The notes under the pieces: model-generated
Told to the model about the DNA's origin: nothing
What the model saw: the letters and a program-made list of their open reading frames with translations, nothing else
Databases searched by the model: none
Program-made: the position numbers and the translations under genes
In this document: piece by piece, positions 5,804 through 27,591 of the stretch
Layout: each line of letters starts with the position of its first letter
Position numbering within the stretch: position 1 is the first letter of the stretch
NCBI GenBank assembly: GCA_031285625.1
Contig: JAITVV010000084.1
Span: 1-64,000, forward strand
DNA length: 64,000 nucleotides
From: Prevotella sp.
Lineage (GTDB): Bacteria; Bacteroidota; Bacteroidia; Bacteroidales; Dysgonomonadaceae
Direction of reading: 5' to 3'

Positions 5804-8800
5804 TTATTTCGAAATCTTTGTGGTCACATTCTTATTAGTTATAATATGTGTTATCGCAGAATACGGAATCAGTTTATTACCTTGTAATCCTCTTATGGCT
5901 GTTTGCAAACATGGATCATCCATATCCGACATGAAATCATAAGTGATATCCAAATCAACTTTCTTTCCTGTAGGTAGATCGTTGTCATCCAGTTCGTCCA
6001 CCAGATCAGCTAGAGCCGGAGCTTTCACTTTGAATTTAATCTGCATCACACCCGTCGGCAATACAAAACCACCCGAACCATCTGATGCACCGGCAATAAT
6101 CAATGTATTAGGAGCATCACCTGCTTCTTGTGTCATAAAGACTGGAACAGGAGGAGTGGAGCTACCTGAGGTCTGTGTATATGCAAAGCTACCCGGCACA
6201 TAAGTAAATTCCTCATTGAAATCTACATTCAGGTACATATCTGTAATATTAGCATTGGTATTAGTAACAGTATACACAACTTCAATCTCATCATCTGATT
6301 TATAGGCCGCATGACTATATGTAGGATTCATTACCACTTCATCCTGACGCTGCTGCCACACTGCAGTAAAAGAGGTATAAGGATCTTTCGTTTCTCTGTC
6401 TTCACTATAAAGAGACTTCTGTACAGTAGCATTACTTTCAATAATTTCATAAGCTATATTCCCTCTATTATTATATACTGCACTTGGTGCATCTTCGTCA
6501 AGCAGAGCGGTTGCCCTCAAAATCAAAGTTGTTTGCCCGGGAACAACCAGTCCGTCAATCTTCAATTCTTCACCGTTACCGGATGTTGCAGGATTAATTT
6601 GAGGATCGAATGCAGGATTGTGGTCACTACTGATAGCATCTAATCCGAATGAGCCAATTTCCCATTTCATCTTTTCAGGTAAAATATCACTAAAATTGAC
6701 TGTTACCGGATCACAATTCACATTTCCAATATAGAATGAATATTCCACCGGATCACAAGTAGTGACTTCGCGCTCCTTTACCTGTTTTCCAAATGATAAA
6801 CCATCTTCATTAATTGTAGGTGGAGGCGGTACCGGACGCAGAGTGATCGGAGAAATATATATTTCTTGTGTTGACGATGTTGCTCTACCTGTAGTCCTGT
6901 ACTTAATAGTTACACTTGTCACTCCCCCTTTAAAGGAAACATTTACCATACCGTTCTTGTTACTAGCAGACACGCCTCCTCTTTTGGTTACAGTAGCTCT
7001 ATTTCCCGATATTTTGTATCTCGCCTGATTGGGTTTACCTGCAAAGCTCAGTGTAGGTACATAATTTCCGTTCGAACATCCTCCGATTATCTCAACTTCT
7101 TCAAAAGATCTGGATGAGCAATCAAGATCGGAAATCGAAAATTCAGGAATTACAGGATGATTAAATGTAATTGTAACAACGACATCCTGATTGATATTTC
7201 CACCTCTACGTTGAACACGTAAACTTCCTTTAGCCGGTGTATTTACCGAACGTGGATATCTACGGTTCGCTCTTACATTAGTAGGGTATGCAACCTTCGT
7301 TTCGGTAACCTGAATATTATCACCCAGATTTACAGGAGTATTAACTGTAAGGGTTAGCCCTGTAGCCGTCGAAGTGTTGGTATTGGACGTCCATTGCGTC
7401 CATGAGAATTGTTTCGAGCCTGTAAACTGCGCATCTTCGTCAGCAGCACAACCATCCGAATTGGCCTTGTAGCCAAAAGTAACATAGGTACCCTCAGCAG
7501 ACAAAGTATAAGCGCATTGAGGTTCGCCATTCAGCCAATTCATTGGAATTACCGCTTTAAAATTACCATAATTGGGATTACCCGGGATAAGAGCTGTTGA
7601 GTCGTCGGCAATTATCATAACAAAATCATTGCCTTTATTGATCACGTTATACAGATCTCCAGTAGCAGGGTCCCCTGAAGGTTCCTGTCCAAGGTTATTT
7701 GTCGAGTTGTCTTGCAATCCGATAAGTACTGAAATTGGGCGGTCATTGTTTGACACTTTATGCAAAAACCATCGTCTGTTAAAGATCGACTCAAAGTCAC
7801 CACAAATATCAGCATCTGCAACAACTGTTGTACCTTTTCCGTGATTATCGCCCCATATAACAGCTTCTCTGTCATTATCAAAAGTACCTACCTTACTACT
7901 ACCATCAAAATTCAACGATTCTCCCGCAACACCAACATGAAGTATAGAACCTACTTCGGTAGAGTGCGACTGAGTATTATTTAAAAGAGCTATATCGTCA
8001 CGTATAATTGCTGCAATATTATGATAGTAACGATAAGGAGAACCTACTGGCGAAGACAGTCCGGGCCATAAAGATGTACCATTAGACAATTTGTAATCGA
8101 ATCGCGGAGCAGAATAATCTGAGGAGTTAGGATTTAATGTAAGTCCGTATTTAAGAGCATAGTAGGAGTTTACCATTGCTCTTTCGTCATCAGTCAATGC
8201 CTTTTCATACATCACTACTTCCGATACAAGTCCTCTCAACGAACGGGTATGGTAACGGCTACCTCCTAGAGATCCGTTCCCATTCATATACCAAGTACCG
8301 GCTCTAACGCTACTACCATATACACCATATGCCATATTAAAACCTACAACAATATTGTTTGCCGGTATAGTACTACCAACATTTGTAAATTGATAAGACG
8401 AAATCGTAGTTGAACCGGGATTGAATAATTTTGCATCTATATTAACAGCAACATTCGTCCTTAAACGTGGCCGGCCATCTCCATTACGAGACTGAATACC
8501 AAATGTCGGCAAATATTGAGTATAACCAGTCAATACCTCAGGATTATGAAAAGATATCATATAAGTATTATCACCATCACTCGGACGCAAAGCACTATTC
8601 ATTACCATAAAAGTAGTACTATTAACAGGTTTTCCGGTGCTCATAGGACCTTTGGTTGTAGATAAGAATGCTGAAAATCGGTTTGAACTAGAATTCGTAC
8701 CCCAGTCAGTATAAAAATCAATTGCAGGATGATAGTTCATTAAGTAGTGTATAGGAATATAAACCGGTGTACGTATATCAGCATTGGAATTATTTTTACT

Positions 8801-10369
8801 ATAGACTGTCGTTCTGGCAGGGTCTGTATCCCTCCATTGTGTAACTCCGGTTTGTGTTGCAGATGGTGCATTCAAACCATCCCATGCAATTGAATAGCTT
8901 TTATTATAATCAGGGAGAGTCATTCCCTGAACCAATGTCAATGAATTAGGGTCATCGGCCCTCAGCCACATTTTCAGACCGATAGGCACACCACCGGGAC
9001 CTACTTTCATACCTGCAAACCTAACATACTTGTAGGTATCAGTTATTTCCACATCATGAAAATAACCATCGCTACCCACAGGATAGGCTTTAGTTGTCGA
9101 CGGATCAAAATCGGATGTAGTAGATACAAAACAATATGAAAAACCACTCGCTGAAAAATTCACTTTCATTGTTGTTGCATTTGTCAGCTGCGCTTTATAT
9201 TTAGCCCCTACTACATTCAAATCATTAGGGGCTATCAGTGGATCAATAAAAGTTCCTTCTGCATATACAGTACCTGTAGCGATTGTATGAGCTGTTTCGC
9301 TGGCACCATCTGAACCGAAAACGAGAAACTGTTTGTCGTTCAATTCATTTGTCGTAAAAGCCGGATTTTGGTCATTCAAGTCAGCAAGGTTACCTACAAA
9401 AACTATAATACCAGCATCTGAAACACTGCTACTTTGTACCTGATTAAGCATACTGGCATCATCACGCCCTATACCAAAAATATTTTTATCAAAGGCACTG
9501 TCCCTATTCCAAAGAGTGAGAAGCGATGAGCCATCTGTATCATAAAGCTCATAGTTATCGTTATTATCCAGATGAATTCCGTATTTTATAGCAAGATAAG
9601 TATGGATTTTACGTAGGTCGGCAGCATCAATATGGTTATTTGTACCTCCGGTTGCATTCAGTATTATTATCTCCTGAACATTACCTTCAAAACCGTAACC
9701 GGACGAAGCACTACTACCGTTTGCTCCAATTGTCCATTTAGAACTAATACCACTGGAACTCAGATAGCCACCTGTAGTTGATTGACTAAGACCATCTACA
9801 TATCCCAGCACTGTTGCAGAAGAGGAATTATTAGCAATACTGACGGCAACTATTCCTTTTCCCTGGGTACTTGCAACAGTACTCCTACTGGTACCCGGCC
9901 AATATAACCTCAAATCATTATTGTCATTTTCATAAAATACAAGGTCACAGTCTGCATTACCATCATTAAATGAAAACAGGTAATCATAACGTTGATCGTC
10001 CTCTCTTTCATATACTATAATTGCTGTTACATTATCACCTCGGCTTAAACTCATCGTATTAGCACTTACCAGCCTGTTAAAGGCATTTGTATTATCTTCT
10101 TTGGCAAAATATGCAGACTGATGATAATTGAATCCTTTTACTTTATTGGGTGCAGCGTGATTAGTTACGCTCGATTCAAAAAAACTACCAGCAGAAAGAG
10201 CTCCTGTGATATTATTAACCCAGGTACCGTTGCTATAGTTATTGGGTGTTAGCCAGGCCCTATAGTTGGCAGTTACCCCACCCGGACTTGGTTGAGCCTG
10301 AGCCTGTATGGGTAAGACGAGGGATAGGAATATCACCCCCAATATTAATTTTAAATATTTAGTATTCAT
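5804..10369 (-). CDS. Large secreted surface protein, 1521 residues
   Basis: A signal peptide (about residues 1-25, AQAQA region) is followed by a LamG/concanavalin-like region (about 30-250). A segment about 256-320 (YLAIKYGIHLDNNDNYELYD ... NIFGIGRDDASMLNQVQSSS) is repeated at about 735-810 (YYALKYGLTLNPNSSDYSAP ... HNIAAIIRDDIALLNNTQSHS), each after a LamG-like block. These modules are common in large Bacteroidota exported proteins. The C-terminal third looks like beta-sandwich modules related to DUF11-type domains (about 1190-1490). No transmembrane anchor, LPXTG motif or clear type IX secretion tail is seen. It stands alone on the minus strand. Adhesion or surface-layer function is plausible, but no activity can be named. 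Confidence 0.75.
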   Translation of the reverse strand: MNTKYLKLILGVIFLSLVLPIQAQAQPSPGGVTANYRAWLTPNNYSNGTWVNNITGALSAGSFFESSVTNHAAPNKVKGFNYHQSAYFAKEDNTNAFNRLVSANTMSLSRGDNVTAIIVYEREDDQRYDYLFSFNDGNADCDLVFYENDNNDLRLYWPGTSRSTVASTQGKGIVAVSIANNSSSATVLGYVDGLSQSTTGGYLSSSGISSKWTIGANGSSASSGYGFEGNVQEIIILNATGGTNNHIDAADLRKIHTYLAIKYGIHLDNNDNYELYDTDGSSLLTLWNRDSAFDKNIFGIGRDDASMLNQVQSSSVSDAGIIVFVGNLADLNDQNPAFTTNELNDKQFLVFGSDGASETAHTIATGTVYAEGTFIDPLIAPNDLNVVGAKYKAQLTNATTMKVNFSASGFSYCFVSTTSDFDPSTTKAYPVGSDGYFHDVEITDTYKYVRFAGMKVGPGGVPIGLKMWLRADDPNSLTLVQGMTLPDYNKSYSIAWDGLNAPSATQTGVTQWRDTDPARTTVYSKNNSNADIRTPVYIPIHYLMNYHPAIDFYTDWGTNSSSNRFSAFLSTTKGPMSTGKPVNSTTFMVMNSALRPSDGDNTYMISFHNPEVLTGYTQYLPTFGIQSRNGDGRPRLRTNVAVNIDAKLFNPGSTTISSYQFTNVGSTIPANNIVVGFNMAYGVYGSSVRAGTWYMNGNGSLGGSRYHTRSLRGLVSEVVMYEKALTDDERAMVNSYYALKYGLTLNPNSSDYSAPRFDYKLSNGTSLWPGLSSPVGSPYRYYHNIAAIIRDDIALLNNTQSHSTEVGSILHVGVAGESLNFDGSSKVGTFDNDREAVIWGDNHGKGTTVVADADICGDFESIFNRRWFLHKVSNNDRPISVLIGLQDNSTNNLGQEPSGDPATGDLYNVINKGNDFVMIIADDSTALIPGNPNYGNFKAVIPMNWLNGEPQCAYTLSAEGTYVTFGYKANSDGCAADEDAQFTGSKQFSWTQWTSNTNTSTATGLTLTVNTPVNLGDNIQVTETKVAYPTNVRANRRYPRSVNTPAKGSLRVQRRGGNINQDVVVTITFNHPVIPEFSISDLDCSSRSFEEVEIIGGCSNGNYVPTLSFAGKPNQARYKISGNRATVTKRGGVSASNKNGMVNVSFKGGVTSVTIKYRTTGRATSSTQEIYISPITLRPVPPPPTINEDGLSFGKQVKEREVTTCDPVEYSFYIGNVNCDPVTVNFSDILPEKMKWEIGSFGLDAISSDHNPAFDPQINPATSGNGEELKIDGLVVPGQTTLILRATALLDEDAPSAVYNNRGNIAYEIIESNATVQKSLYSEDRETKDPYTSFTAVWQQRQDEVVMNPTYSHAAYKSDDEIEVVYTVTNTNANITDMYLNVDFNEEFTYVPGSFAYTQTSGSSTPPVPVFMTQEAGDAPNTLIIAGASDGSGGFVLPTGVMQIKFKVKAPALADLVDELDDNDLPTGKKVDLDITYDFMSDMDDPCLQTAIRGLQGNKLIPYSAITHIITNKNVTTKISK

Positions 10370-10532: not shown

Positions 10533-11093
10533 TTATTTCAAACTTTTCCTAAAAATATATGCCCAAATTAATCCGGCTATTGCACCAGACAAATGTCCTT
10601 CCCATGAGATTCGGGTATCTCCCGGAAATATGCCCCATACAAGGCTGGAGTAGAGGATAAGAACAATGACAGAAACAATTATCAACTTGAAATTTTTACT
10701 AAAAAAACCGGCGAAAACAAGAAATGAAGCCAGTCCGTATATAACAGAACTGGCTCCTATATGCCATGAAGGACGTCCTATAATCCATGTAAGAAGCCCT
10801 GCCGTAATCCAAATAAGGCTGTATATAAGAAATACTTTCTTTTTGTAAAAGAAGAAAACCAAAGTGGTCAACACCACCATGGGTATAGAATTAGCTATTA
10901 AATGCTGAAAATCACCATGAATGAAAGGCGACGTAATGATACCTAAAAGCCCGTCAACAGAACGAGGAAAAACTCCTAATGAGTAAAACTCAAGCCCAAA
11001 AAGCCATTGTACTATATGAACTACCCAAAAGACAAGTACAATAGACAGGGCATACTCCAATGATTTTTTTATCTCTCTGACGGATTCTTTCAT
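10533..11093 (-). CDS. Rhomboid-family intramembrane serine protease
   Basis: The 186-residue membrane protein shows rhomboid hallmarks: HGDFQHLIANS (Asn68 of the HxxxN oxyanion motif) in the second helix, HIGASS with catalytic Ser115 (GxSx), and WEGHLSGAIAG with catalytic His167. About six hydrophobic helices can be counted. Rhomboids cut transmembrane proteins inside the membrane. Its ATG directly follows the TAG stop of the ABC ATPase gene, so the two are translationally coupled and it is the last gene of the six-gene operon. A natural hypothesis is that it processes a membrane-anchored partner from the same operon, such as the substrate-binding/OmpA protein; this is inference. Confidence 0.92.
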   Translation of the reverse strand: MKESVREIKKSLEYALSIVLVFWVVHIVQWLFGLEFYSLGVFPRSVDGLLGIITSPFIHGDFQHLIANSIPMVVLTTLVFFFYKKKVFLIYSLIWITAGLLTWIIGRPSWHIGASSVIYGLASFLVFAGFFSKNFKLIIVSVIVLILYSSLVWGIFPGDTRISWEGHLSGAIAGLIWAYIFRKSLK

Positions 11094-12044
11094 CTAATAA
11101 TCGTCACCTGCCATTTGAGTCATTATTCCGTCAATATAATTGACATACTCATTCAGCTTTTCAGACTTCTTGAGTGAAGTATCTCTAACTAAAGGTAAAT
11201 CAATATCGACAACGGTATGTATTCTTCCCGGATTAGCGGCCATAATATATATGCGGTTACTCAAAAGAACAGCCTCGCTAATATCATGTGTCACGAATAT
11301 AACAGTAGGATCTAGTGTTGCACTGTTATATATATTCAGTAATATATGCTGCATGCTCGATCTGGTAGCAATGTCCAATGCTCCAAACGGCTCATCCATC
11401 AGAAGAATCTGAGGAGAAGCAATCAGACTACGTGCAATAGCTACACGTTGCAATTGACCTCCTGAAAGTAAAGGATATTTTGCCCACTTCTGTCCATGCC
11501 CTTCCAGACCAACAGTCTTAAGCATTTCGTTTGCCCTCTCATAACTTTCTTCTTTAGATACTCCACGCATCTTAAGAGGCAAAGCAATATTATCAAGAAC
11601 AGACATCCACGGAAAGGAAGAATATTGCTGAAAAACCATTGGAATGGTGTCTTTTTCAGTTTTCTCTTTTCCATATATCATTATCTTCCCGCTTGTGGGT
11701 TGCTGTAATCCGGATATATAGCGTAATAACGTAGATTTACCACAACCTGATTCACCTAATATAGATATAAATTGCCCCTGCCCCTTAAAGTCTTTAATAT
11801 CCATATTCAGATCTTCGAATAAAACAAAATCTGATTTCTTACCGGGATAGACCTGTCTTATATTTTGCAGGTTTATTACATCTGTTTCTTCATATATGTC
11901 GCTTGACGGAGATGCTGGTGTGGAAACAAAAACAGAAGTAGTCGCAATTTTTATTTCCTCCGGTTGAACTTGCTCTATATTATTATTCGTTTCCTCTTCG
12001 TTACTCTGATTAAATATATCTGATATTGAGTTTCTTTCTTCCAT
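11094..12044 (-). CDS. ABC transporter ATP-binding protein (nitrate/sulfonate/taurine type)
   Basis: This 316-residue ATPase carries Walker A GESGCGKST (about 97-105), Q-loop Gln139, signature LSGGQ (193-197), Walker B ILLMDE (213-218) and switch His253. The body resembles SsuB/TauB/NrtD ATPases that pair with BPD-type permeases. Unusually, about 60 residues of acidic, Ser/Thr/Pro-rich sequence precede the domain, which has no counterpart in the usual family members and may contact other operon products. It sits 7 bases after the permease gene and abuts the rhomboid gene. The transported substrate is unknown. Confidence 0.93.
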   Translation of the reverse strand: MEERNSISDIFNQSNEEETNNNIEQVQPEEIKIATTSVFVSTPASPSSDIYEETDVINLQNIRQVYPGKKSDFVLFEDLNMDIKDFKGQGQFISILGESGCGKSTLLRYISGLQQPTSGKIMIYGKEKTEKDTIPMVFQQYSSFPWMSVLDNIALPLKMRGVSKEESYERANEMLKTVGLEGHGQKWAKYPLLSGGQLQRVAIARSLIASPQILLMDEPFGALDIATRSSMQHILLNIYNSATLDPTVIFVTHDISEAVLLSNRIYIMAANPGRIHTVVDIDLPLVRDTSLKKSEKLNEYVNYIDGIMTQMAGDDY

Positions 12045-12051
12045 TTCTTCT

Positions 12052-12909
12052 TTATTTTGATGATTTAAAGAACAGACCTTTCAGTATACTATCTTTATTG
12101 TATTTTGACGGAAATAAAAGAATATCCAGATATTTGAACAAACGGTCTTGTAAAAAACCAATAAGTATAATCAAAAACAATAAAGCAAAAACTTCAGGAG
12201 TTCTGGACTGACGCCCTAATGTATAAATCATAGCTCCTATTCCACCTTCCTTATTCAACAACTCCGCTACAATGATATATGTCCACGATATAGCAGTGAT
12301 TACACGTATATCTTCAGAAATTTTCTCAGTTACATACGGGAAATAAACATGGCGAAATTTCTGCCAGTTTGTAGCGCCAAGAGTCTGTATTGTCTGCAAA
12401 TAGACATAGTCTTTACTATTTGACGGATTCTGTAATTCATTTATTCGTTGAACGATGATTGGCAACAGATAAATAAGGATACCAAAAGAAAGGAAGTATA
12501 CTTTCATATCAAAACCGATTCCAAACCAGGCTATAAAGATACCTGTAATAGCTGTTAAAGGAAGGAAACGGATAGCATCGATATACTGGCTGAATAAACT
12601 TTTGGCAATAGGGAACATACCTATAAGAAAGCCAAGCGGCAAGGCTAATACAATAGCTGTGATATATCCTAAAATATTGAGCTGTATAGAATACCATGTA
12701 TTTCCCGCTAAATCATAATCAGTAAAAAGCTCTCCATATGATGTAACAACCGCAAGTGGATTAGGTAAAATTTTGCTTGGAATAATATCTCCTGTCAGTG
12801 TAAGCAAATACCATACTACTAACAAAATAACTAACCCGACTAAAGCAATAATGGTGGAAGTAAGCTTATTTATACTTCCACCCATTTTAAATAATTCTTT
12901 TATATTCAT
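12052..12909 (-). CDS. ABC transporter permease (nitrate/sulfonate/taurine type)
   Basis: The 285-residue inner-membrane protein has about six helices and the BPD_transp_1 fold. The EAA-like loop that docks the ATPase is visible late in the protein (around AELLNKEGGIGAMIYTLGRQ). It resembles SsuC/TauC. It lies between the ATPase (7-base gap) and the substrate-binding/OmpA gene (18-base gap). The three together form a complete importer, so import of a small anion or organic solute is likely. Confidence 0.93.
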   Translation of the reverse strand: MNIKELFKMGGSINKLTSTIIALVGLVILLVVWYLLTLTGDIIPSKILPNPLAVVTSYGELFTDYDLAGNTWYSIQLNILGYITAIVLALPLGFLIGMFPIAKSLFSQYIDAIRFLPLTAITGIFIAWFGIGFDMKVYFLSFGILIYLLPIIVQRINELQNPSNSKDYVYLQTIQTLGATNWQKFRHVYFPYVTEKISEDIRVITAISWTYIIVAELLNKEGGIGAMIYTLGRQSRTPEVFALLFLIILIGFLQDRLFKYLDILLFPSKYNKDSILKGLFFKSSK

Positions 12910-12927
12910 GATTTGAATTACACGTTA

Positions 12928-14457
12928 TCAATCAGTAACAAGTTGAAAATCTGTAGTTCTGTAATTAATATCAGATCCCACTACTCCGTTATCTACAGCA
13001 TGCTTAGGTCCATTACCTACCACAATAAAACGGTTGCGATCAAACTGATATTCACGTACAAGATAATCTACGACAGATTGGGCACGTTGTTTTGACAAAG
13101 CCACATTTGAATTGTAGTTACCTGTATTATCCGTATTTCCTTCAACACGGATACGGGCTCCGCTAAATTGTTTTGCAATAGACACAAATTCCTGGTCGAT
13201 AAGACCTTTTGCATCATTAGATAATCCAGATTGAGCAACAGCAAAGTTGATTGTTAATTTCTTATTAGAGATTGCCTCTTTACGTTCAACCTCAGCAGAG
13301 GCTTTACTGAATGTTGCAGCAGCTTCAGCTGACTGATCTCCTTTTATATTACCTTGTTGTTCCAGTTTTTCTATAATCTTAGGATAAGAAACCCGCCTCC
13401 AGGCCATAGGCTTCTTAGTTAATTTCAAAGATTCATACACACGTGCCATTTTACTGTAAAGATCATCACCTTTAACACCTGTATAATTTGTATTCAGACC
13501 ATAAAAGTTAAGCTCATCCCCTAAAGTAGCAAAACGAATATTCTTCACACCTTCAATACAGAATGCTTCATCTGTACCAAAGCCTTTAGCAAAATATCCG
13601 GCAGCCTCTTTTACGGCAGATGGATCATCATTCATCTTAGAATTTGCATAAAGAATTGCGCTTACAATTTTTGCTACATCATCCTGATTTTTATCAAGGA
13701 AATCTTCTTTGGCTATCAAACCGTCACAAATAATGTTTGTTGCCTGTTTTGTACTAAGCAAAACTTTAGCACCTTTCACAGCTTCGACGCAATCGATATC
13801 ATCCGGCGACCATGTAACACAAGCATCTACCTGAAGAGCCTTAAACATCTGAGCTGCTTCAACTCCATTCTCGACTTTTACAAGTGTAATTTCATCCGGA
13901 TTGATTTCATTTGTCTCCAAAGTGTTGATTAACAAAGTGTGTGCTGCAGTTCCTTCTGCTACTGCTATTTTCTTACCTTTAAGGTCAGCAACTGTATTGA
14001 TAAATCTGTTCACAACAATTGCATCAGCACCACGAGACCAGTTCAACAACATGAAGTGACGTACATCTGTCATATCTCCACTCTCAGACATTTCTGTAGG
14101 CAAAGCATCTGCCGTACAGTATATCATATCGACTTCACCTTTCTTCAAACCGTTACGGCCGGCAATAAAATCATCCTGAATTACTATATTCAGCATAATT
14201 CCATATTCTTTTGCTATAACAGATTCTTCGTTTGGTTTTAATCCACCATTCAACCATATGATAGGAGTAAATCCGGCATAAGTATTTACACCAACTGTGT
14301 ATGTAGGCATTTTATTGCCAAACAATCCACCTTTTTTACCCGAATCCGAGCTACCGCCCATTATACCACTATCACGTAAATAAATGATAGCTCCAGCAAT
14401 TATTGCTACTACTAATACGGTTAAAGCAACTTTAACCCAAGGTCTAACATTACCCAT
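12928..14457 (-). CDS. ABC substrate-binding protein fused to an OmpA-like domain
   Basis: The 509-residue protein starts with an uncleaved-looking membrane anchor (about 8-27), then a type 2 periplasmic-binding fold related to NrtA/SsuA/TauA proteins (about 50-390: YTVGVNTYAGFTPIIW ... GEVDMIYCTADALP ... VNRFINTVADLKGKKIAVAEG). The C-terminal part (399-509) is an OmpA/MotB-type peptidoglycan-binding domain with the key Asp443 (NTDNTG) and Arg458 (LSKQRA). The architecture would tie the solute receptor both to the inner membrane and to the cell wall, which ordinary binding proteins do not do. It belongs to the six-gene operon, upstream of its permease and ATPase. Ligand unknown. Confidence 0.9.
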   Translation of the reverse strand: MGNVRPWVKVALTVLVVAIIAGAIIYLRDSGIMGGSSDSGKKGGLFGNKMPTYTVGVNTYAGFTPIIWLNGGLKPNEESVIAKEYGIMLNIVIQDDFIAGRNGLKKGEVDMIYCTADALPTEMSESGDMTDVRHFMLLNWSRGADAIVVNRFINTVADLKGKKIAVAEGTAAHTLLINTLETNEINPDEITLVKVENGVEAAQMFKALQVDACVTWSPDDIDCVEAVKGAKVLLSTKQATNIICDGLIAKEDFLDKNQDDVAKIVSAILYANSKMNDDPSAVKEAAGYFAKGFGTDEAFCIEGVKNIRFATLGDELNFYGLNTNYTGVKGDDLYSKMARVYESLKLTKKPMAWRRVSYPKIIEKLEQQGNIKGDQSAEAAATFSKASAEVERKEAISNKKLTINFAVAQSGLSNDAKGLIDQEFVSIAKQFSGARIRVEGNTDNTGNYNSNVALSKQRAQSVVDYLVREYQFDRNRFIVVGNGPKHAVDNGVVGSDINYRTTDFQLVTD

Positions 14458-14491
14458 ATTTTAATGTATTTCAATTAAGTTAAACTTATTT

Positions 14492-15532
14492 TTATTTGTC
14501 GAAGTATTTCACATCAGAATCAGGATTCTGTGTCATACTTTTGCTCTCGATTGTTTTATATTCATTCGGTGAAAGATAAACAGTTTTTTTACTTTCATTT
14601 ATCTTTACATTATTTTCAAATGTCTTGAAAATACCTTCAATACCCAGTTCATTATACTTATCTATCAGCTCGCTACCTTTAAATGAAGCCACTTCATTAT
14701 CTGCCTCAAACTGGTCTATCAGACCTCCAGTGCTACTGATAACACGTTCCATTTCACCCAGTTTCATTTCAATATCGGTACGCATTGCTTCCAAAGCCTC
14801 ATTAAATAAGGCTAATTCATCAGGATCGCCTTCCATAACAGACATTACAGACTTGAATAGTTTATGTTGACTCTTAGCCATTTCATACTCTTCTTTCTGC
14901 ATATTCACCTCATTACGTGTGTCCAAAACAGTTAGCTTTGCCATCTGACTCAGTTTATCCAATGACTCATACCAACGTTTCGAATCCTTAAGTAATCCAA
15001 GAAGCTTATTAATATATTTTTCGAGACGTGCAATCTGGCGTTCATCAATTACCGCTGCATCTTTATTTCCTTTAGCACGATATACCTGTGCACGTTGGAG
15101 AAGCTTTTCCATCTCTTCCTTCTTCGAGTCAATAGATCCTTCAAGCTTGCGTATTTGCCCCAACAGACGTCCCATGCTTTCATTCATCTTTTGGATAGAT
15201 CTTTCCATCATGCCCAAACGACGTTCGATTATGGCTATAGGATCGATATTCACAAACCAGGAAGTTATTTTACGCATAAGGATAAAATATCCCACACTTA
15301 TAACTTGTCGGAATTTTTTATCGAAAAGTAAAAATATGATGAGCCCGATGATTAACAGCAAAATACCAAAATACAATGTATTTTCAGCGAGTTCAATCAG
15401 ATAAGGCAATATTTTGTATAAGAATATAAGAAACCCGACTCCAAGCCCTGCCAAGACCGCAAGACCTAATTTTCCACCGGGCTGCTCCCATAATTTCTTC
15501 TTTGGAGCCTGACTTCCATCTAATTGTAGCAT
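14492..15532 (-). CDS. Membrane-anchored coiled-coil protein, PspA-like in character
   Basis: In this 346-residue protein two closely spaced hydrophobic segments (about 23-45 and 52-72) are followed by a third partly hydrophobic stretch and then a long charged coiled coil (about 100-285). Motifs such as RAQVYRAKGNKDAAVIDERQ resemble PspA/IM30 helices, but I cannot show homology. The tail (about 290-346) is not coiled. It lies between the soluble coiled-coil gene (3-base gap) and the binding-protein/OmpA gene. I do not recognise a named family; a structural or membrane-stress role next to the transporter is inference. Confidence 0.7.
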   Translation of the reverse strand: MLQLDGSQAPKKKLWEQPGGKLGLAVLAGLGVGFLIFLYKILPYLIELAENTLYFGILLLIIGLIIFLLFDKKFRQVISVGYFILMRKITSWFVNIDPIAIIERRLGMMERSIQKMNESMGRLLGQIRKLEGSIDSKKEEMEKLLQRAQVYRAKGNKDAAVIDERQIARLEKYINKLLGLLKDSKRWYESLDKLSQMAKLTVLDTRNEVNMQKEEYEMAKSQHKLFKSVMSVMEGDPDELALFNEALEAMRTDIEMKLGEMERVISSTGGLIDQFEADNEVASFKGSELIDKYNELGIEGIFKTFENNVKINESKKTVYLSPNEYKTIESKSMTQNPDSDVKYFDK

Positions 15533-15535
15533 TTT

Positions 15536-16267
15536 CTAGTTCGTTTTAATTATAGTTTCTATTTTCACTTTATCTCCATTTAGTTGATTTACAATTTTAT
15601 CAACTGTTGCATTGAAATTAGCTTCACGTAAGGCATAGTCATTTTTTTTCTCAACTATTTCCATATTGGTCTCGGTAACAAAAGCAGTTAACTTTTGTAT
15701 TTCAGCTTTCATTTTTTCGATATTACCAATAGCCTTATTTATTTCAATTTCTTTCTTATCTACATTTTGCTTACGTAGATTATTAAGTTCGTTCAGTCCC
15801 TTCTTTCTTTCTTGCTCCATTAAATCAATATACTGATCTATGGTTTGACTGAGACTTTCTACAGTCAGAGAAGGAAATGTGGCTTTCAATGTAAGATAAG
15901 CCGTAGTGAAACGGATCGTTTCATCAGGCTGTATACCTTTCAATGAATCTACAGACCGTTTAAACTTCACATAGTCTATGCCATCAGCCATTTGCCGGCC
16001 TAGAACATCATTACACAGTTTATCCATCAACTCCTGATCAGCCTTGCCTGTTATTTGGGAGGGATCGAGGGGTTCCGTCATTGACAATTCTGATAGACCT
16101 GCCATATTTGGCATACTAGACACTGGAGATTTAGGCAAAGGAGGAGGCGTTGCCGGAGCATCTTTGCGCAAATTTGAAATTCTTTCAGGCTGTTTCGCCG
16201 GTTCTTCTTGCTCATTAGAACCTTCGTCAACGAAAATAAGTTTCTTCAGCCAATTGGATTTACTCAT
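15536..16267 (-). CDS. Soluble coiled-coil protein of unknown function
   Basis: This 243-residue protein has no signal peptide or membrane segment. Residues about 15-70 are Pro/Ser-rich and likely disordered (contains TPPPLPKSP). Residues about 75-140 are helical, and about 145-240 form a coiled coil rich in Lys, Glu and Asn. It is the first gene of the operon, after a well-formed promoter, and ends 3 bases before the membrane coiled-coil gene. The pairing suggests the two coiled-coil proteins interact. Function unknown. Confidence 0.7.
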   Translation of the reverse strand: MSKSNWLKKLIFVDEGSNEQEEPAKQPERISNLRKDAPATPPPLPKSPVSSMPNMAGLSELSMTEPLDPSQITGKADQELMDKLCNDVLGRQMADGIDYVKFKRSVDSLKGIQPDETIRFTTAYLTLKATFPSLTVESLSQTIDQYIDLMEQERKKGLNELNNLRKQNVDKKEIEINKAIGNIEKMKAEIQKLTAFVTETNMEIVEKKNDYALREANFNATVDKIVNQLNGDKVKIETIIKTN

Positions 16268-16301: not shown

Positions 16302-16331
16302 CAAAAGTATTAATCTCTATGTCGCACCAAG
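16302..16331 (-). promoter_or_regulatory. Promoter of the six-gene transporter operon
   Basis: On the minus strand TACTTTTG (16302-16309) fits the -7 pattern and CTTG (16328-16331) fits -33, with an 18-base gap. It lies about 35 bases before the first start codon of the operon. Confidence 0.6.
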
Positions 16332-16780: not shown

Positions 16781-19700
16781 ATGAGACACCAATCTTTCGG
16801 TTTAATGAGAACATATAAACTCTTCTTAATTTGCTTACTATTTATTTTTTCTGCAAAAACATCGCTTGCAGTATATACTGTACATAAAGCATATAAGCTA
16901 GACCTGTCAAACAATGCTATTTTATGTATGTATCAGGACAACAACGGTTACATGTGGTTTGGTACATATGATGGACTAAATTTGTACAATGGCAAAAGCA
17001 TGTTTGTATACAGGTTTGAGATGGATAATAAAAACTCTCTGTGCAGTAATATAATTCACAAAATATCTCAGGCAGATGAAGACAATCTATGGATATCCAC
17101 TTTTTTAGGTCTTAATAAATTTTCGTTGAAAGAGAGGAAAGTAACAGAATCGCATACAGAATGCCCTGAGGCCAGGCTATTAGCTTCTGATAGTAAAGGA
17201 AATACATGGGTTATATCAAAAAAAAATTACATATCATACTATACACCTAAGGTTAAAAAATTCAGAGACATTCATTTGCCGGGAGTTAGCACAGAAAATG
17301 TTATAGAATTATTTACTGACAACGATGGTAAGCTTTATTTGATAATGACTGATGGAAGCATTAAGAATATAAAGATCTCAAATAAATCAGGCAATGATCT
17401 GGAACTGGATGTTAGCGACACAAAATTTCATAACAAAAGTATAATCAGTGCTTTTTACCAAAGTAATGAAATGTATTTTGTCGACAATGAGAGGAAACTA
17501 CATTTATTTAATCCCTCTCAAAAAACAAAAATATTTCTTGCTGACCTATCTAAGTTGCCTAATAATGGACGTATCTCCAATATTCTCTCTTTTAATGACA
17601 ATCTCTTCATTTCATTTAATAGCGGTGCAATTATCAAGCTGAATGTACAGAAAGATTCATATGAGGAAATTACCAGCTCCGGCGTTGGTATATATTGTAC
17701 GATTAAGGACAAGAAACAAGATTTACTGTGGATAGGGACAGATGGCCAGGGTGTGCAATTATACCATCAAAGCCACGAAATGTTTAAAAATATAACACAC
17801 GAATATTTACCAATAAAAACACAAAAACCGATAAGATCAATTTATACCGACGAATATGACAATCTTTGGATAGGGACAAAAGGTGATGGTTTTATACAAA
17901 TCAAAAATTATAATGACATAAATGCTCATCCTCTGTATAATCGTTATACAACCGACAATGGACTATCCAACAATTCCGTTTTTTGTTTTCTACGAAGTAA
18001 ATTCCACAATGTAATATGGATTGGTACCGAAGGACCCGGATTATCATTTTACTCCTACCGGGACAATAAAGTGAAAACCTTATCCAGCGACCAGATTGGT
18101 AAAGTTCATTCTATATGTGAAGTTAATTCGTCAACCTTATGGCTAGCCACAGCAGGAAATGGCCTCCTGGAGGTCTCTTTAAAAGAAGAGAATGGGACGC
18201 TCTCTGTTAAATCTGTCAACGAATTTTTCCCCAAAAAAGGAGATAGAATATGTAATGAGTTTCATTCTATGTATTATGATGGCAAGTCTACCATATTTGT
18301 AGGTAGCAGAGGAGGATATGGCGTTGTCCGCTTCAATATAGAAAGTAAGCAATACGATTTTATTCAAATGAATAAGAACGAAAACTCGGCTATTGGTGAC
18401 GTGCTTAGCGTTCATTTCAGTAAAGATTCCATATTTTATATTGGAGCCAGTTCCGGGCTGACAAAAATGCAACTACTTCCTAATGGTAATAACCAGATTA
18501 AACAATTTGACAGAAGAAGTGGAATAGCTAATGATATGATCCATGGAATTCTTGAAGATGAAGATGGGTGTATATGGTTAAGTACAAACAAAGGTTTAAC
18601 AAAATATAATCCCCATAACGATTTCTTTCACAACTACTCTCACCCAGAATTATTAGTAACCGAATTTTCGGACGACGCTTACTGGAAGAGTCCTCAAACA
18701 AACAGATTATTTTTTGGAGGAATAAATGGATTGGTCTGGGTAGATCCGAATGAAGATTATCCGGCAAACAGCTATGCTCCTGAATTATTATTCTTCGATC
18801 TTAAAATATCGGGAGAGAGTCATACCTTAGATAATTATATGAATAAAGAAGGGTCTGTTGAAATCCCATCTAATACATCGTCATTCACTATATCGTTTGT
18901 TGCACTGGATTATATTAATGGGGATAACTATGAATATTCTTATATTTTGGAAGACTATAATACGACATGGACTGAATTGCAAAAAACGAATGAAGTAACA
19001 TTTACAAACCTTCCTTACGGTGACTATGTACTAAAGGTAAGATATAAGAATGACGTATTTGGATCGGATGAGAAATATTACTCATTACATATAAGTAAAT
19101 TAGCTCCCTGGTATCTCACAAAATGGGCCATTCTGGGCTATATTTTACTTTTCTTGTTTATCTGCACATATATCATATATCTGATTCGAAAAAAGATAAT
19201 AAACAAGCAAATACTCATTGCCCGGAAAATAAAAGAAGAACAAAAAGAAAAACTATTAGAAGCCAAGTTGAATTTTTTCACAAATATTACCCATGAGTTT
19301 TGCACCCCTCTTACGGTTATAAATGGAGTAACTGAGCATATAGACAAGACGTTGGAGACAAATGACTTGAGAAAATATACAGATGTGCTTCGTAATAATG
19401 TGAATGATCTCAACGAACTGATACAGGAGATACTGGATTTTCGAAAAATTGAAGAATCGAAATTTGAGGCTGGCAACATAAAAAAAGTCTCTATCTCAGA
19501 TATAATGACACGTCATTTAGAATCCTTCATCCCAATTGCAGAACAAAACAATGTAGAACTGAATGCATCCATTCCTAAAAACTTAGAATGGAATACAGAT
19601 ATTTCATGCTTCAACCGTATATTTATTAATCTTATATCAAATGCTTTTAAGTATACAAAAGAAGGTGGCAAAGTAAATGTTTCTGTAGATATTGAAAATG

Positions 19701-20818
19701 AAAAATTAATACTGAAAGTACGAAATACAGGAAAAGGCATAGAGGAATCAAAGATACCCAACATATTTGATCGTTATCGTATCCTTGAAAATATGGAAAA
19801 CAATAGCCTTTACTCTCAAATGACATCACGCAATGGTATAGGATTATCCATATGCCATAGTATGGTAAAGTTGCTACAAGGAGAGATTGAAGTAAAAAGT
19901 GAAATAGATCAATTCGCTGAATTCATAGTCTACTTACCAGTCCTAGAAGCCACAAAACAAACGAATCCCGAAATCCAACAGAGAGAAAATAGCGGAAACG
20001 GAGTTGATACACTTTCCCCTAAACGACCTGAAGATGCTTCCAAACAAACTATTCTGATAGTAGATGATAATAAGGACATTGTATGGTTAATTACAGATAT
20101 ATTATCCGACCGATATATTATAAGAGGGGCCAATACTGTAGAAGAAGCATTAAAGATACTGGAGATGCAAACTCCAGCACTAATTATTACAGATATAATG
20201 ATGCCTAATATTGATGGATTGGAATTTATAAATCGAATAAAAGCCAACAAGTTCACAAAACATATCCCTCTGATTATTATTTCAGCTAAGATCAGCGATA
20301 AAGAACAGGCTGAGGGGCTCAATACAGGAGCTGACGCATATCTTACAAAACCTTTCTCACCAATAGTATTACAGTCACTGGTAAACCGTCTGCTAATAAC
20401 AAAAGAAGAATTGAAAGATTATTATTATTCACCGGAAAGTGCTTATGAATATACAGATGGACAACTCATACATCAGGAAGATAAGGATTTCATGGATTCG
20501 GTCATATCTATAATTGATGAAAATATAGAAGAAGAAAACCTTCGTCCGGAATTAATCGCTGATAAATTAGGAATAAATACACGAAACCTATATCGTAGAT
20601 TTAAGAAAATAACATCACTTCCACCAAACGACTTTATCAAAGATTACAGATTTACGTTAGCTGCCAGACTACTTGTAACAACAAGCCTCACTATTCAGGA
20701 AATCATATACAAGGTAGGTATCACCAACAAATCTTATTTCTACAGGGAGTTCTTTAAAAAATACAATATGACTCCCAAGGAATACCGTTCAGCTGATTCA
20801 GCGAGCAAACCCCAATAG
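16781..20818 (+). CDS. Hybrid two-component system sensor/regulator (HTCS)
   Basis: This 1345-residue one-protein signalling system senses a glycan fragment in the periplasm and activates the neighbouring utilization locus. The order is signal peptide, two-part beta-propeller sensor (repeats of the type NGYMWFGTYDGLN and LWIGTDGQGV), Y_Y_Y domain, membrane helix (about 787-808), HisKA with phospho-acceptor His838 (ITHEFCTPLT), HATPase (NLISNAFKY, GKGIEESKIPNIFDRY, GIGLSICHSM), receiver with Asp1138 (ITDIMMPNIDG) and Lys in LTKPF, and an AraC-type helix-turn-helix at the end. A better start may be Met9 (16805), where the signal peptide begins. It is followed by a strong terminator, then susC in the same direction, so this is the likely local regulator. 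Confidence 0.96.
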   Translation: MRHQSFGLMRTYKLFLICLLFIFSAKTSLAVYTVHKAYKLDLSNNAILCMYQDNNGYMWFGTYDGLNLYNGKSMFVYRFEMDNKNSLCSNIIHKISQADEDNLWISTFLGLNKFSLKERKVTESHTECPEARLLASDSKGNTWVISKKNYISYYTPKVKKFRDIHLPGVSTENVIELFTDNDGKLYLIMTDGSIKNIKISNKSGNDLELDVSDTKFHNKSIISAFYQSNEMYFVDNERKLHLFNPSQKTKIFLADLSKLPNNGRISNILSFNDNLFISFNSGAIIKLNVQKDSYEEITSSGVGIYCTIKDKKQDLLWIGTDGQGVQLYHQSHEMFKNITHEYLPIKTQKPIRSIYTDEYDNLWIGTKGDGFIQIKNYNDINAHPLYNRYTTDNGLSNNSVFCFLRSKFHNVIWIGTEGPGLSFYSYRDNKVKTLSSDQIGKVHSICEVNSSTLWLATAGNGLLEVSLKEENGTLSVKSVNEFFPKKGDRICNEFHSMYYDGKSTIFVGSRGGYGVVRFNIESKQYDFIQMNKNENSAIGDVLSVHFSKDSIFYIGASSGLTKMQLLPNGNNQIKQFDRRSGIANDMIHGILEDEDGCIWLSTNKGLTKYNPHNDFFHNYSHPELLVTEFSDDAYWKSPQTNRLFFGGINGLVWVDPNEDYPANSYAPELLFFDLKISGESHTLDNYMNKEGSVEIPSNTSSFTISFVALDYINGDNYEYSYILEDYNTTWTELQKTNEVTFTNLPYGDYVLKVRYKNDVFGSDEKYYSLHISKLAPWYLTKWAILGYILLFLFICTYIIYLIRKKIINKQILIARKIKEEQKEKLLEAKLNFFTNITHEFCTPLTVINGVTEHIDKTLETNDLRKYTDVLRNNVNDLNELIQEILDFRKIEESKFEAGNIKKVSISDIMTRHLESFIPIAEQNNVELNASIPKNLEWNTDISCFNRIFINLISNAFKYTKEGGKVNVSVDIENEKLILKVRNTGKGIEESKIPNIFDRYRILENMENNSLYSQMTSRNGIGLSICHSMVKLLQGEIEVKSEIDQFAEFIVYLPVLEATKQTNPEIQQRENSGNGVDTLSPKRPEDASKQTILIVDDNKDIVWLITDILSDRYIIRGANTVEEALKILEMQTPALIITDIMMPNIDGLEFINRIKANKFTKHIPLIIISAKISDKEQAEGLNTGADAYLTKPFSPIVLQSLVNRLLITKEELKDYYYSPESAYEYTDGQLIHQEDKDFMDSVISIIDENIEEENLRPELIADKLGINTRNLYRRFKKITSLPPNDFIKDYRFTLAARLLVTTSLTIQEIIYKVGITNKSYFYREFFKKYNMTPKEYRSADSASKPQ

Positions 20819-20831
20819 TATCCCAAAAAAC

Positions 20832-20878
20832 AAAAAGAGTATCCTGATTTACCACACGTAGATCAGGATACTCTTTTT
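20832..20878 (+). terminator. Terminator after the HTCS gene
   Basis: A 17-base stem (20832-20848 with 20862-20878) with A-rich and T-rich ends separates the regulator from the susC transcript. Confidence 0.85.
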
Positions 20879-21040
20879 GTCAATTAGAATATATAAAGAT
20901 ATATTTATATTTATTAACATTGCATTAATGAAAAAATAGTGCCACATCTTACTTTTTTTAATCTTATATACTATGCAAAACATTTCAACTCAAAAGATAT
21001 TTTTATCATCTGATAATTTGGATGTTAGCTGTATTTTATT

Positions 21041-21113
<73 letters not shown>

Positions 21114-21148
21114 CAATTTAGCAATTCTTTTCTTAATATACAAAAACA

Positions 21149-21174
21149 AATCAGAACAGAGATCTGCTCTGATT
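21149..21174 (+). promoter_or_regulatory. Leader hairpin 1 upstream of susC
   Basis: AATCAGA pairs with TCTGATT and an inner CAGA with TCTG, with one mismatch between them and a 2-base centre. No T run follows. It may be an RNA structure of the susC leader. Confidence 0.5.
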
Positions 21175-21187
21175 CGTCAATAATTAT

Positions 21188-21230
21188 AAGGCCTTGCTTC
21201 GGATAACTTCCGAGGCAGGGCTTTGCTTAT
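21188..21230 (+). terminator. Leader hairpin 2, terminator-like attenuator upstream of susC
   Basis: A 16-base stem with one or two G-T pairs (21188-21203 with 21209-21224) and a 5-base loop is followed by a U-rich stretch. It sits about 120 bases before the susC start, inside the presumed leader, and could reduce read-through until relieved. Confidence 0.55.
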
Positions 21231-21344
21231 TTATTAACCTTTAAAAACCATATTTATGTAAACATCGAAAAATCATCCCACAATCAAATCAAAAAGAGTA
21301 ATCTCTTAAATAACTAATTCAAGTTAACTAAAAAAAATCATATT

Positions 21345-24300: not shown

Positions 24301-24560
24301 GTGATGGTTCTTACCTGCGTGCTAATCTGATCCAATTAGGTTATACATTCAATTCTAACACTATCAAAAAAATAGGCCTTTCTTCACTACGTGTCTATGG
24401 AAGTGTCAGCAATGCATTCCTGATTACTGCATCAGATTATAAGGGATTAGATCCGGACAACTCGTCACGCTTAGACAACAATAAATGGGGAGCCAATCGT
24501 CAGTTCTTTACTTATCCGCGTCCAAGAACATTTACACTAGGTCTCAATGTAGCATTTTAG
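21345..24560 (+). CDS. SusC-like TonB-dependent outer-membrane transporter
   Basis: The 1071-residue protein has an extended signal region, a CarbopepD-regulatory domain (about 54-130: VKGTVKDDTGEPLSGVSVVVKG), a TonB-box-like stretch (LDEVVVVGYGT), a plug domain, and a C-terminal 22-strand barrel ending in FTLGLNVAF. SusC proteins import oligosaccharides across the outer membrane with a SusD lid, powered by TonB. The susD gene follows 31 bases later. Neighbouring GH92 genes point to mannose-rich glycans as cargo. Confidence 0.96.
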   Translation: MRKKSASKASGKEYGRRVLFLFLSLIFFQYSFASSPTITKDVNEDLSIEQSNITVKGTVKDDTGEPLSGVSVVVKGTTTGTITDLDGAYTINVPNASSTLVFSFIGFHKQEITVGGRADINVVLVEDAKALDEVVVVGYGTMRKSDVTGSIATAKGSDIIKGQTFNALDGLKGKAAGVNIFSNTGQPGGEMRVIIRGISTIQASANPLYVVDGVVMDNFQFLNPNDIESIEVLKDASSAAIYGARGANGVILVSTKRGGNTGKKAQISYAGSMSVGTMARYMDMMDANQWMAAFKQGLENSNAWRGTNYTTDLSQIFTDERLFNADGSPKYNTDWQKEATRTSFSHNHQVNIQHGDENSSVGAFLNYTDQQGIALNSYMKRVNAKMAYDAKPTKWLSTAVNLMVNHTWGNRTSDNPYGQGVLRTMIEQLPWLPVQLDGEYMQTNSYKTTSIPVDQNNPGGKTQGFAPEAMGNPVEMLKRTVNMQYRTQIFGNAALTFHLAEGLDLKTQFGVDYQNQREKKYEPSTPRPILGLNSLGRAEANNGNTLYWQEETYLTYTKTLGKNYINAMAGMSWQERDYTYFKGIGTGFGDDFYEYYNIGNGTERPSLESKHERWTMNSYFMRIAYSHDNKYMVTATGRVDGSSKFGPNNKYGFFPSIGLGWMASNENFLKDNTIISKLKPHASFGVTGNSEIGVYASLPTLSQSKVIIGNQLQIVSYLDKMANPNLKWERTNQWDFGVDLGLFNNRLNIEASYYYKYTTDLLLERPLPKSTGFANVTTNVGEVSNRGLDLLINAYPIDNASLNWNTTLNLSFNKNRVEKLDPSSSVDPLTGKRQILKDGFTNYEMLIREGEELSTFYGYKRAGIYDGNPANWDAETMNIPSTIGEKVTYKERQILGNGLPDWMGSFINTVSYKNFDLTLDLQFSWGADIMQEFFHSTEGRFLTNGLDGLYTNAWHPTLNPGGTSQAIRLQNFGMGSNADADDTWVCDGSYLRANLIQLGYTFNSNTIKKIGLSSLRVYGSVSNAFLITASDYKGLDPDNSSRLDNNKWGANRQFFTYPRPRTFTLGLNVAF

Positions 24561-24591
24561 TCTGTAATAATAAATATAAAATCATAATCAT

Positions 24592-26211: not shown

Positions 26212-26254
26212 GATAAGTAATAGATTCAATTAATCTATTTAGCAATAAATAATG

Positions 26255-26290
26255 ACCTGCAATTCCCGTTATATCGGAATTGCAGGTTAT
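26255..26290 (+). terminator. Hairpin after susD
   Basis: A 12-base stem (26255-26266 with 26276-26287) followed by TTATTTAT can end or weaken the susCD transcript before the enzyme genes. Confidence 0.6.
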
Positions 26291-26427
26291 TTATCCCAAA
26301 TCTTTGAATAAATGAAAGAAAAGATACTCTTATTGCAAAACAGGATACCTTAATTTCTCTTGATAAAAACTATAATTGTACTTCTTTTATAACATATACA
26401 TCGCATTCTTGAAACTGAAAAAACACC

Positions 26428-27543: not shown

Positions 27544-27591
27544 ATAATTAGTTACGAGCTGTGAATTACTTACAGCTGAATATAAAAAAAT

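Follow-up and report, generated by a model that had tools for sequence, protein, structure and literature searches.

Six genes packed on the minus strand of one Bacteroidota contig raise the question of whether they form a single device of the cell envelope and, if so, what such a device would do. According to the ORF list of the window (the whole stretch of DNA analysed, 64,000 nucleotides), the six ORFs occupy 10533..16267 with intergenic gaps of 0, 7, 18, 34 and 3 bases, in exact agreement with the layout of gaps of 0-34 bases given in the initial annotation. The features are collected in Table 1.

Table 1. Features of the locus, with coordinates in the window
Feature	Position	Strand	Basis
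CC1, 243 aa	15536..16267	-	ORF; first gene of conserved unit
PspA-like protein, 346 aa	14492..15532	-	PF04012 under cut-off, commonest among relatives; profile comparison; two TM
SBP-OmpA, 509 aa, anchored substrate-binding and peptidoglycan-binding fusion	12928..14457	-	Pfam NMT1 and OmpA; phage and bacterial conservation
SBP-OmpA N-terminal TM anchor, residues 7-25	14383..14439	-	Hydropathy
SBP-OmpA NMT1/TauA-like solute-binding domain, residues ~52-345	13423..14304	-	Pfam; TauA alignment
SBP-OmpA OmpA-like peptidoglycan-binding domain, residues 405-490	12988..13245	-	PF00691; conserved D443, R458
ABC permease, 285 aa	12052..12909	-	PF00528; EAA-loop region conserved
ABC ATPase, 316 aa, lineage-specific N-terminal extension of ~50 residues	11094..12044	-	PF00005; motif residues conserved
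Rhomboid protease, 186 aa	10533..11093	-	PF01694; outside conserved unit
Promoter-like site TTG-N18-TACTTTTG	16302..16330	-	Motif match

A single promoter had been placed ahead of the six genes. A TTG-N18-TACTTTTG site, in the form of the Bacteroidota-type promoter consensus, is present and ends at 16302, with the start codon 34 bases downstream. The window contains 9 matches to this motif where 6.35 are expected, so that the motif by itself is little proof. No Rfam match to an RNA element was obtained within the window. The G+C content of the operon (0.367 vs 0.374 for the window) shows no sign of a recent transfer into this genome, and dN values of 0.035-0.23 in three Dysgonomonas speak for selection.

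The family names first given to the rhomboid, ATPase, permease and binding protein were borne out by Pfam, for which matches are reported as bits against the curated cut-off. The rhomboid scored 80.7 with PF01694 (cut-off 22.6) and carries the serine motif GASSVIYG and a later histidine in its sequence, the ATPase scored 103.7 with ABC_tran (25) and the permease 48.8 with BPD_transp_1 (26.4). In the ATPase, Walker A K103 is kept in 55/56 aligned rows, and signature S194, Walker B E218 and H-loop H253 are each kept in all 55 rows with letters; the EAA-loop region of the permease is conserved as well. Judged by these residues, both proteins keep their working motifs. The disordered extension of 60 residues described for the ATPase proved real in part: the domain match starts near residue 56, leaving about 50 extra N-terminal residues, but these are lineage-specific, many relatives having only 259-270 aa. 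None of the three ABC parts reached an NCBIfam equivalog cut-off (Tau, Ssu, Ntr, Sao), the best scores being 200.9/360 for the ATPase, 107.8/295 for the permease and 77.2/333.9 for the binding protein.

The binding protein, SBP-OmpA, combines in one chain an NMT1 domain (45.4 bits, cut-off 20.5) and an OmpA domain (50.6 bits, cut-off 27.2) behind a single N-terminal hydrophobic segment at residues 7-25, as expected from the membrane anchor and peptidoglycan-binding domain already noticed in it. In the OmpA domain, D443 (64/65 rows with letters) and R458 (65/65) are the conserved aspartate and arginine of the OmpA wall-binding site. By its sequence the protein is anchored in the inner membrane and has an intact peptidoglycan-binding domain at its other end. 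In the solute domain, D145 (65/66 rows) and D245 (66/66) align with Glu106 and Asp205 of TauA, and a passage of the TauA paper describes these two residues as holding the amine of taurine, with Thr132 as third ligand. Because the acids are conserved at both positions, SBP-OmpA probably binds a small solute that bears an amine. There is no indication that this is taurine itself, since Thr132 aligns with Ala171 (alanine or proline in 47/49 rows) and the NCBIfam cut-offs were unreached.

The two coiled-coil proteins leading the operon had been described as belonging to no recognised family. This holds for CC1, for which no significant Pfam family was found; it is predicted to be cytosolic, without a TM segment by hydropathy, and has a disordered N-terminus followed by a small helical part and a C-terminal coiled coil. 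It does not hold in the same way for its neighbour, in which two N-terminal TM segments (24-42 and 52-70) precede a PspA/IM30-like coiled-coil region (97-232). The best Pfam family of this PspA-like protein is PspA_IM30 (PF04012), at 25.5 bits under the cut-off of 33.9, and the same family is the commonest among its relatives (19/33 at E<=0.1). Profile comparison with true PspA gave an E of 4.7e-6 and a probability of 86 over only 63 columns, CC1 as control giving a probability of 3.5. In a PDB search, designed coiled coils ranked above Vipp1/PspA. Taken with the score under the cut-off and the short match, this ranking means that the kinship to PspA could partly be coiled-coil likeness.

Gene order separates the rhomboid from the other five genes. 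CC1, the PspA-like protein, SBP-OmpA, permease and ATPase stand in the same order in 20/30 other bacterial loci. Among 25 loci, the five families were present in 25, 24, 23, 22 and 19, with the next-best neighbour families in 3. No sixth conserved neighbour emerged from these 25 loci, and the operon of the window also holds no AAA+ gene; neither a conserved enzyme gene that would name a pathway nor a conserved regulator or sigma factor was found beside the unit in them. The rhomboid lies beside the five genes on the same strand in 2/30 other bacterial loci and 0/40 viral loci, and adjoins them only in Dysgonomonas (the window, L001 and L002). Relatives of it occur in 17/41 genomes, 13 of these 17 being without a match to the binding protein, and in one genome (G040) rhomboid and operon are on different contigs. 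We therefore rejected the rhomboid as a fixed part of the device, against the initial annotation, and its distribution marks it as a later, Dysgonomonas-specific partner of the operon. By the same evidence the other five genes constitute a conserved unit. Without the protease the set is still conserved and still spans the envelope, by way of its permease, its TM-bearing coiled-coil protein and the anchor, binding and OmpA domains of SBP-OmpA.

By the test named in the initial annotation, a chance grouping would show itself if the coiled-coil genes and the rhomboid did not accompany the ABC set in other genera; both coiled-coil genes do so across Bacteroidota families and in phages, and the rhomboid does not. 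Exceptions were seen, with the binding protein alone at L063 and L067 and the ABC genes lacking both coiled-coil partners at L071 and L073, so that the scaffold may be dispensable. The surroundings of L067 are unusual, and this locus may stem from contamination.

In bacteria, which were sampled within Bacteroidota only, with genome groups centred on the phylum of the window, the unit is patchy (3/25 genomes of the genus, 26/393 of the order). Two phylum-wide searches each matched only the window's own genome (1/395); both used the same sample, in whose list the order of the window is represented by just five further genomes, and scored at most 3 candidates per genome. Terminase was found in 5/27 operon-bearing genomes and never on the contig of the operon; by this test the bacterial copies are not prophage contigs. 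Several other settings were set aside. A prophage in the genome of the window was rejected because G000, G005 and G018 gave no terminase match, and a plasmid-borne unit because none of the 167 matching plasmid records matched over 80% of the protein. As a defence system, the set gave PADLOC matches to generic ATPase and MotB-type models only. For a TelA/tellurite-type operon, considered as a candidate identity, no such gene is among the conserved neighbours, and a literature search gave it no relevant support.

The unit is also carried by viruses, namely Lak megaphages, the 735-kb phage LR756501, IMG/VR contigs and, in rearranged form, Bacillus phage G. The five-gene order is present in 27/35 viral loci after removal of five near-copies (30/40 before), including the two Lak records examined and LR756501; binding protein, PspA-like protein and permease are found in 15/15 Lak records among those listed. 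Terminase was detected in 12/39 distinct viral records, 8 of the 12 holding the full five genes in order, and the 27/39 without a terminase match include many fragments. Tail sheath, taken as a second hallmark, was matched in 3/19 records, and no match exceeded the cut-off. The five genes of two Lak phages contain 0 TAG among 60 and 64 glutamine positions, vs 63 and 66 TAG in the other ORFs of the stretch, so the five genes can be read in the host's own code; but the TAG-free stretch reaches beyond the operon, and there are further TAG-free genes in the vicinity.

Phage G carries the order permease, ATPase, gp246, gp247 and two SBP-OmpA genes, and its depositors annotated gp243 as permease, gp245 as ABC transporter and gp249/gp250 as OmpA/MotB domain. 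The layouts of gp246 and gp247 resemble those of CC1 and of the TM-bearing PspA-like protein, and each has the expected partner as its best, non-significant fit (E 0.0038 and 0.0063; probability 9 and 6); no Pfam PspA match was obtained for either. As a guess, they may be the counterparts of these two proteins. MT835556 was rejected as a phage carrier, at 23% identity and with none of the other unit genes found.

In the binding-protein tree, which was midpoint-rooted, phages and bacteria are interleaved with 7 label changes, all forced, and seven separate bacterial groups lie among the viral ones. The permease tree is interleaved too, with 7 label changes of which 5 are forced. When only terminase-bearing phages were kept, 6 changes were forced and a single phage clade was rejected (p-AU 6.9e-41). 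The gene order common to both suggests that an entire envelope device passes between viruses and bacteria. On the reading favoured below, which draws on these trees, the module would have moved more than once between huge phages and chromosomes of Bacteroidota, the copy in the window being an old, selected and chromosomal one.

The reading we favour, at slightly under even odds (about 0.45), is that the unit encodes a functional importer of the TauABC kind that is tethered to the wall, probably takes up a solute bearing an amine, is linked to a membrane scaffold resembling PspA and has been exchanged between huge phages and Bacteroidota. An active TauABC/SsuABC-like importer would have its binding protein held between inner membrane and wall, so that it does not diffuse and is kept over its permease. 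The two-TM PspA-like protein, with cytosolic CC1 as adaptor, may act as a membrane scaffold, either gathering importers into clusters or protecting the membrane that surrounds them, and phages might use the module during infection to take up a solute as food or to stabilise the envelope of the host. Alternatively, as the initial annotation had it, the parts could make up a sensor, in which the anchored binding and OmpA domains read solute or wall state and the ABC core signals to the coiled-coil proteins with little net import. We regard this as unlikely: the doubly tethered binding protein, the PspA-like partner and the lack of a conserved metabolic gene nearby suit it, but the ABC motifs show the conservation expected of pumps and no conserved regulator or sigma factor accompanies the genes. 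A plain nutrient importer, with CC1 and the PspA-like protein as passengers, would fit the ABC genes standing alone at L071 and L073; it seems quite improbable to us, as most loci of both bacteria and viruses have the two genes immediately upstream. Chance assembly in this genome, which describes the rhomboid as a local neighbour, is next to impossible for the other five genes given their conserved order in bacteria and phages.

Carriage by huge phages admits a further reading, in which the unit is a device for host takeover or superinfection exclusion, captured several times by bacteria and kept as phage protection, import being secondary to a change of the envelope. The seven bacterial groups among viral ones, the standard-code reading in Lak and the patchy presence in bacteria argue for it. 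We nevertheless find it doubtful, since PADLOC returned no defence model beyond the generic matches, a conserved solute pocket is needless for exclusion, and a midpoint-rooted tree sampled from Bacteroidota does not fix the direction of transfer. A related view, which we hold just as tentatively, is that the complete import-and-scaffold machine of the envelope is as much a phage device, in huge phages, as a bacterial one, is installed in the host envelope early in infection, and was captured from phages by Bacteroidota, including the Dysgonomonas of the window, on about seven occasions, perhaps because it protects against such phages. An entire ABC importer whose binding protein is bound to the wall and which has a PspA-like membrane partner, kept in one order in Lak and in the 735-kb phage, points to the host envelope being engineered deliberately. 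The presence of the same module on Bacteroidota chromosomes makes its substrate, its complex and its effect on infection testable in bacteria that can be grown, outside uncultured phages.

The initial annotation knew of no described system of this composition, yet one passage of Ravi et al. (2024, mSystems, PMC11237479) reports operons in which PspA/Snf7 proteins bearing a TM segment accompany an ABC ATPase, a permease and a PBPB-OmpA protein, with OGG56892.1 as an example; it names an AAA+ ATPase as a partner that may occur and proposes a link between membrane remodelling and solute transport. The operon type is, on that passage, already published for bacteria. Our set shares with it the TM-bearing PspA-type protein, ATPase, permease and PBPB-OmpA in one operon, as judged by the description of the parts, and differs in that no AAA+ is conserved in our 25 loci. 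The words virus, bacteriophage and prophage are absent from its main text. Transporter, OmpA and permease are likewise absent from the main texts of two Lak/huge-phage papers and a Jug-phage preprint; 'Clades of huge phages' places membrane and surface proteins in its supplement. No paper on phage carriage of the operon was found in the literature searched, which lay mostly outside subscription journals.

Compared with TauABC/SsuABC/NtrABC, the unit has the same Pfam families for all three ABC parts and acids matching TauA Glu106 and Asp205, whereas its binding protein is membrane-anchored and OmpA-fused, its scores stay below the NCBIfam cut-offs, and it has one permease gene together with PspA-like and coiled-coil partners. 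PspA/Vipp1 (IM30, ESCRT-III superfamily) is the best family for the coiled-coil region, residue 97 aligning to profile position 23; unlike it, the PspA-like protein has two N-terminal TM segments, a Pfam score under the cut-off and the ABC set always alongside. Phages are known to carry single uptake genes, such as PstS in cyanophages. The unit resembles these in giving a phage a nutrient-uptake part, but it comprises an entire importer together with its envelope partners, and the phages concerned measure hundreds of kb.

The six minus-strand genes of the operon lie at the positions first given for them, separated by 0 to 34 bases, and all domains named in the initial annotation exceed their Pfam cut-offs. 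That the ABC genes keep the coiled-coil genes beside them beyond the genus was borne out as well: in blastp with all six proteins, neighbours and gene order stay constant as far as Saprospiraceae (24-59% identity). Seven relatives of the binding protein (39-92% identity) came from a scan of genome contigs. When all ORFs of 25 bacterial and viral loci were clustered, five families occurred in 25, 24, 23, 22 and 19 loci, and no sixth conserved neighbour was found, every other family being present in at most 3 of the 25. The conserved unit is thus five genes, encoding the cytosolic coiled-coil protein CC1, a PspA-like protein, the binding protein SBP-OmpA, the permease and the ATPase. In a profile search, 20 of 30 bacterial loci and 30 of 40 viral ones show the five genes arranged in this way (27 of 35 viral loci without five near-copies, some near-copies remaining); these counts leave out the window, short duplicates (L008-L011, L033-L057), L016 and L032 (a second phage G copy). 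Among the ten bacterial exceptions, four (L006, L065, L069, L080) run out of contig on the side where genes are missing, L063 and L067 carry the binding protein alone, and L071 and L073 have the three ABC genes and lack the coiled-coil genes. Among the viral loci, phage G and its kind are exceptions too, with a different gene order. Permeases of one bacterial branch (L004-L007, L060-L062, L064 and others) measure 355-446 aa against about 260-290 aa, and therefore carry an extra segment.

The rhomboid, proposed earlier as a part of the device, did not keep that place. With a 12-row rhomboid profile, the two Dysgonomonas loci L001 and L002 are the only ones to have it beside the five genes on the operon strand (2/30 bacterial, 0/40 viral). 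Of 41 genomes, 17 contain relatives of the window rhomboid, and 13 of these 17 gave no match in the scan for the binding protein. The six-gene block is unbroken in three Dysgonomonas while its flanks vary: L001 has its downstream neighbours in common with the window except a gene for a 1521-aa protein, and L002 has none. Purifying selection acts on each of the six genes in these three (dN 0.035-0.23; of 12 comparisons, 5 gave a dS above 2 and 7 allowed no estimate of dS). The rhomboid thus truly belongs to the operon in this genus but not to the device. A carbohydrate-use locus is divergent from the operon; besides a hybrid two-component regulator it encodes a TonB-dependent SusC-like receptor, a SusD-like protein and a GH92 glycosidase.

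Features in the window and in related loci
Feature	Locus	Position	Remark
Six-gene operon	window	10533-16267	minus strand
1521-aa protein	window	5804-10369	operon strand, directly downstream; no Pfam match at E<=1e-5; missing from corresponding place in L001
Carbohydrate-use locus	window	16781-29919	divergent from operon
Hybrid two-component regulator	window	16781-20818	divergent from operon; in carbohydrate-use locus
PspA-like gene in two frames	L003 (Tannerellaceae MAG)	743-1809	real break or sequencing error
gp246, gp247	L014 (phage G)	9571-10920	apparent rearranged CC1 and PspA-like counterparts; profile likeness not significant
Relatives of gp246, gp247	L030	6476-7757	as for L014
Second short ORF, like ATPase end	L015 (Lak-B4)	18012-18317	downstream of operon

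The second gene had been described as a coiled-coil protein of no family. Its best Pfam family is PspA_IM30 (PF04012), though the score of 25.5 bits falls short of the cut-off (33.9), and PF04012 is the commonest family match of its relatives (19/33 at E<=0.1). Two transmembrane segments (24-42 and 52-70) precede the PspA_IM30 region. Its profile matched true Bacteroidota PspA (E 4.7e-6, probability 86, 63 columns), the CC1 control giving a probability of 3.5. Against this kinship, a PDB search placed designed coiled coils on top and Vipp1 behind them (E 0.03). The protein is a probable, not proven, PspA/ESCRT-III relative.

ATPase motif residues are retained in 55/56 or 55/55 rows and the conserved permease loop in nearly all, so we regard the ABC core as active. 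SBP-OmpA has an N-terminal transmembrane anchor and a C-terminal OmpA domain, in which D443 (64/65 rows) and R458 (65/65) are the counterparts of the wall-binding Asp/Arg pair of OmpA. Aligned with TauA (by our own count the published numbering is shifted by 21 from that of the chain; Glu106, Thr132, Trp176, Leu204 and Asp205 then fit the letters, Ser109 does not), D145 falls on Glu106, W216 on Trp176 and D245 on Asp205. TauA binds the taurine amine through Glu106, Thr132 and Asp205, and without these residues binding is abolished or much weaker. Asp is kept at D145 in 65/66 rows and at D245 in 66/66, and W216 is aromatic in 66/66. Thr132 falls on Ala171, a position with Ala or Pro in 47/49 rows, so these data do not point to taurine itself; our best guess is a solute that bears an amine or is cationic.

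By tblastn, the binding protein matches 26 of 50,697 phage records, with 80% or more of the protein covered in 20 of them. Fifteen of the 20 are Lak megaphage records, whose proteins (56-59% identity) are closer to that of the window than those of Saprospiraceae (39-45%); the others are a 735-kb phage (two entries, 44%), Bacillus phage G (two entries, 29%) and MT835556 (23%). The PspA-like protein has matches in the 15 Lak records, and the permease in Lak, the 735-kb phage, phage G and some other records. All five genes stand in order in Lak-A2, Lak-B4 (the two of 15 Lak records examined for order) and the 735-kb phage LR756501. Two IMG/VR scans gave 16 and 35 loci, 37 combined, on contigs of up to 452 kb, phage G aside. 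Terminase_6N was found in 12 distinct records of 39 searched, and 8 of those 12 carry the full five.

In Lak phages TAG stands for Gln. Of the Gln codons in the five genes, 60 in Lak-A2 (L012) and 64 in Lak-B4 (L015), none is TAG, and the genes are therefore translatable in an unaltered host; across the remaining ORFs of these 25-kb stretches, TAG occurs 63 times among 6,015 codons in Lak-A2 and 66 times among 5,756 in Lak-B4. The TAG-free stretch extends beyond the operon in both phages. It is flanked by strongly TAG-recoded genes, terminase included (L012, L015). Taken with the published idea that recoded genes are expressed late, the TAG pattern fits early use of the five genes in infection.

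In bacteria, the binding protein occurs in 3 of 25 genomes of the genus (G000, G005, G018) and in 26 of 393 of the order sample (17/206 genera). Two phylum-wide searches, which drew the same sample, each returned only the window's own genome (1/395), with only five other genomes of its order listed and at most three candidates scored per genome. The bacterial copies are chromosomal by context: neighbours in L074 and L058, judged by eye, are SecA and TruA-like or RelA- and ParE-like genes, the L005 operon lies on a 1.26-Mb contig, and no terminase was found on the operon's contig in 27 genomes.

The binding-protein tree (65 rows) requires seven phage/bacterium changes, all forced by well-supported branches. 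For the permease (57 rows, quick method) the number is also seven, and five of these are forced. The window's bacterial group (five rows, support 100/100) is nested in a group with Lak and other phages. Limiting the phages to the 12 that bear a terminase leaves six forced changes, and the test rejects one common clade of phages (p-AU 6.9e-41, with a program warning of long branches). The seven separate bacterial groups of the binding-protein tree would fit capture from phages, a direction that we only infer because the root is a midpoint and the bacterial sampling covers Bacteroidota only.

A passage in Ravi et al. (2024; PMC11237479) covers the bacterial operon type and suggests that membrane remodelling and solute transport are linked; the main text mentions no virus, bacteriophage or prophage. 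Within the literature searched, it is new that huge phages carry the genes, that the conserved unit consists of exactly these five and leaves out the rhomboid, and that the unit has been exchanged repeatedly; the residues of the amine site are new as well.
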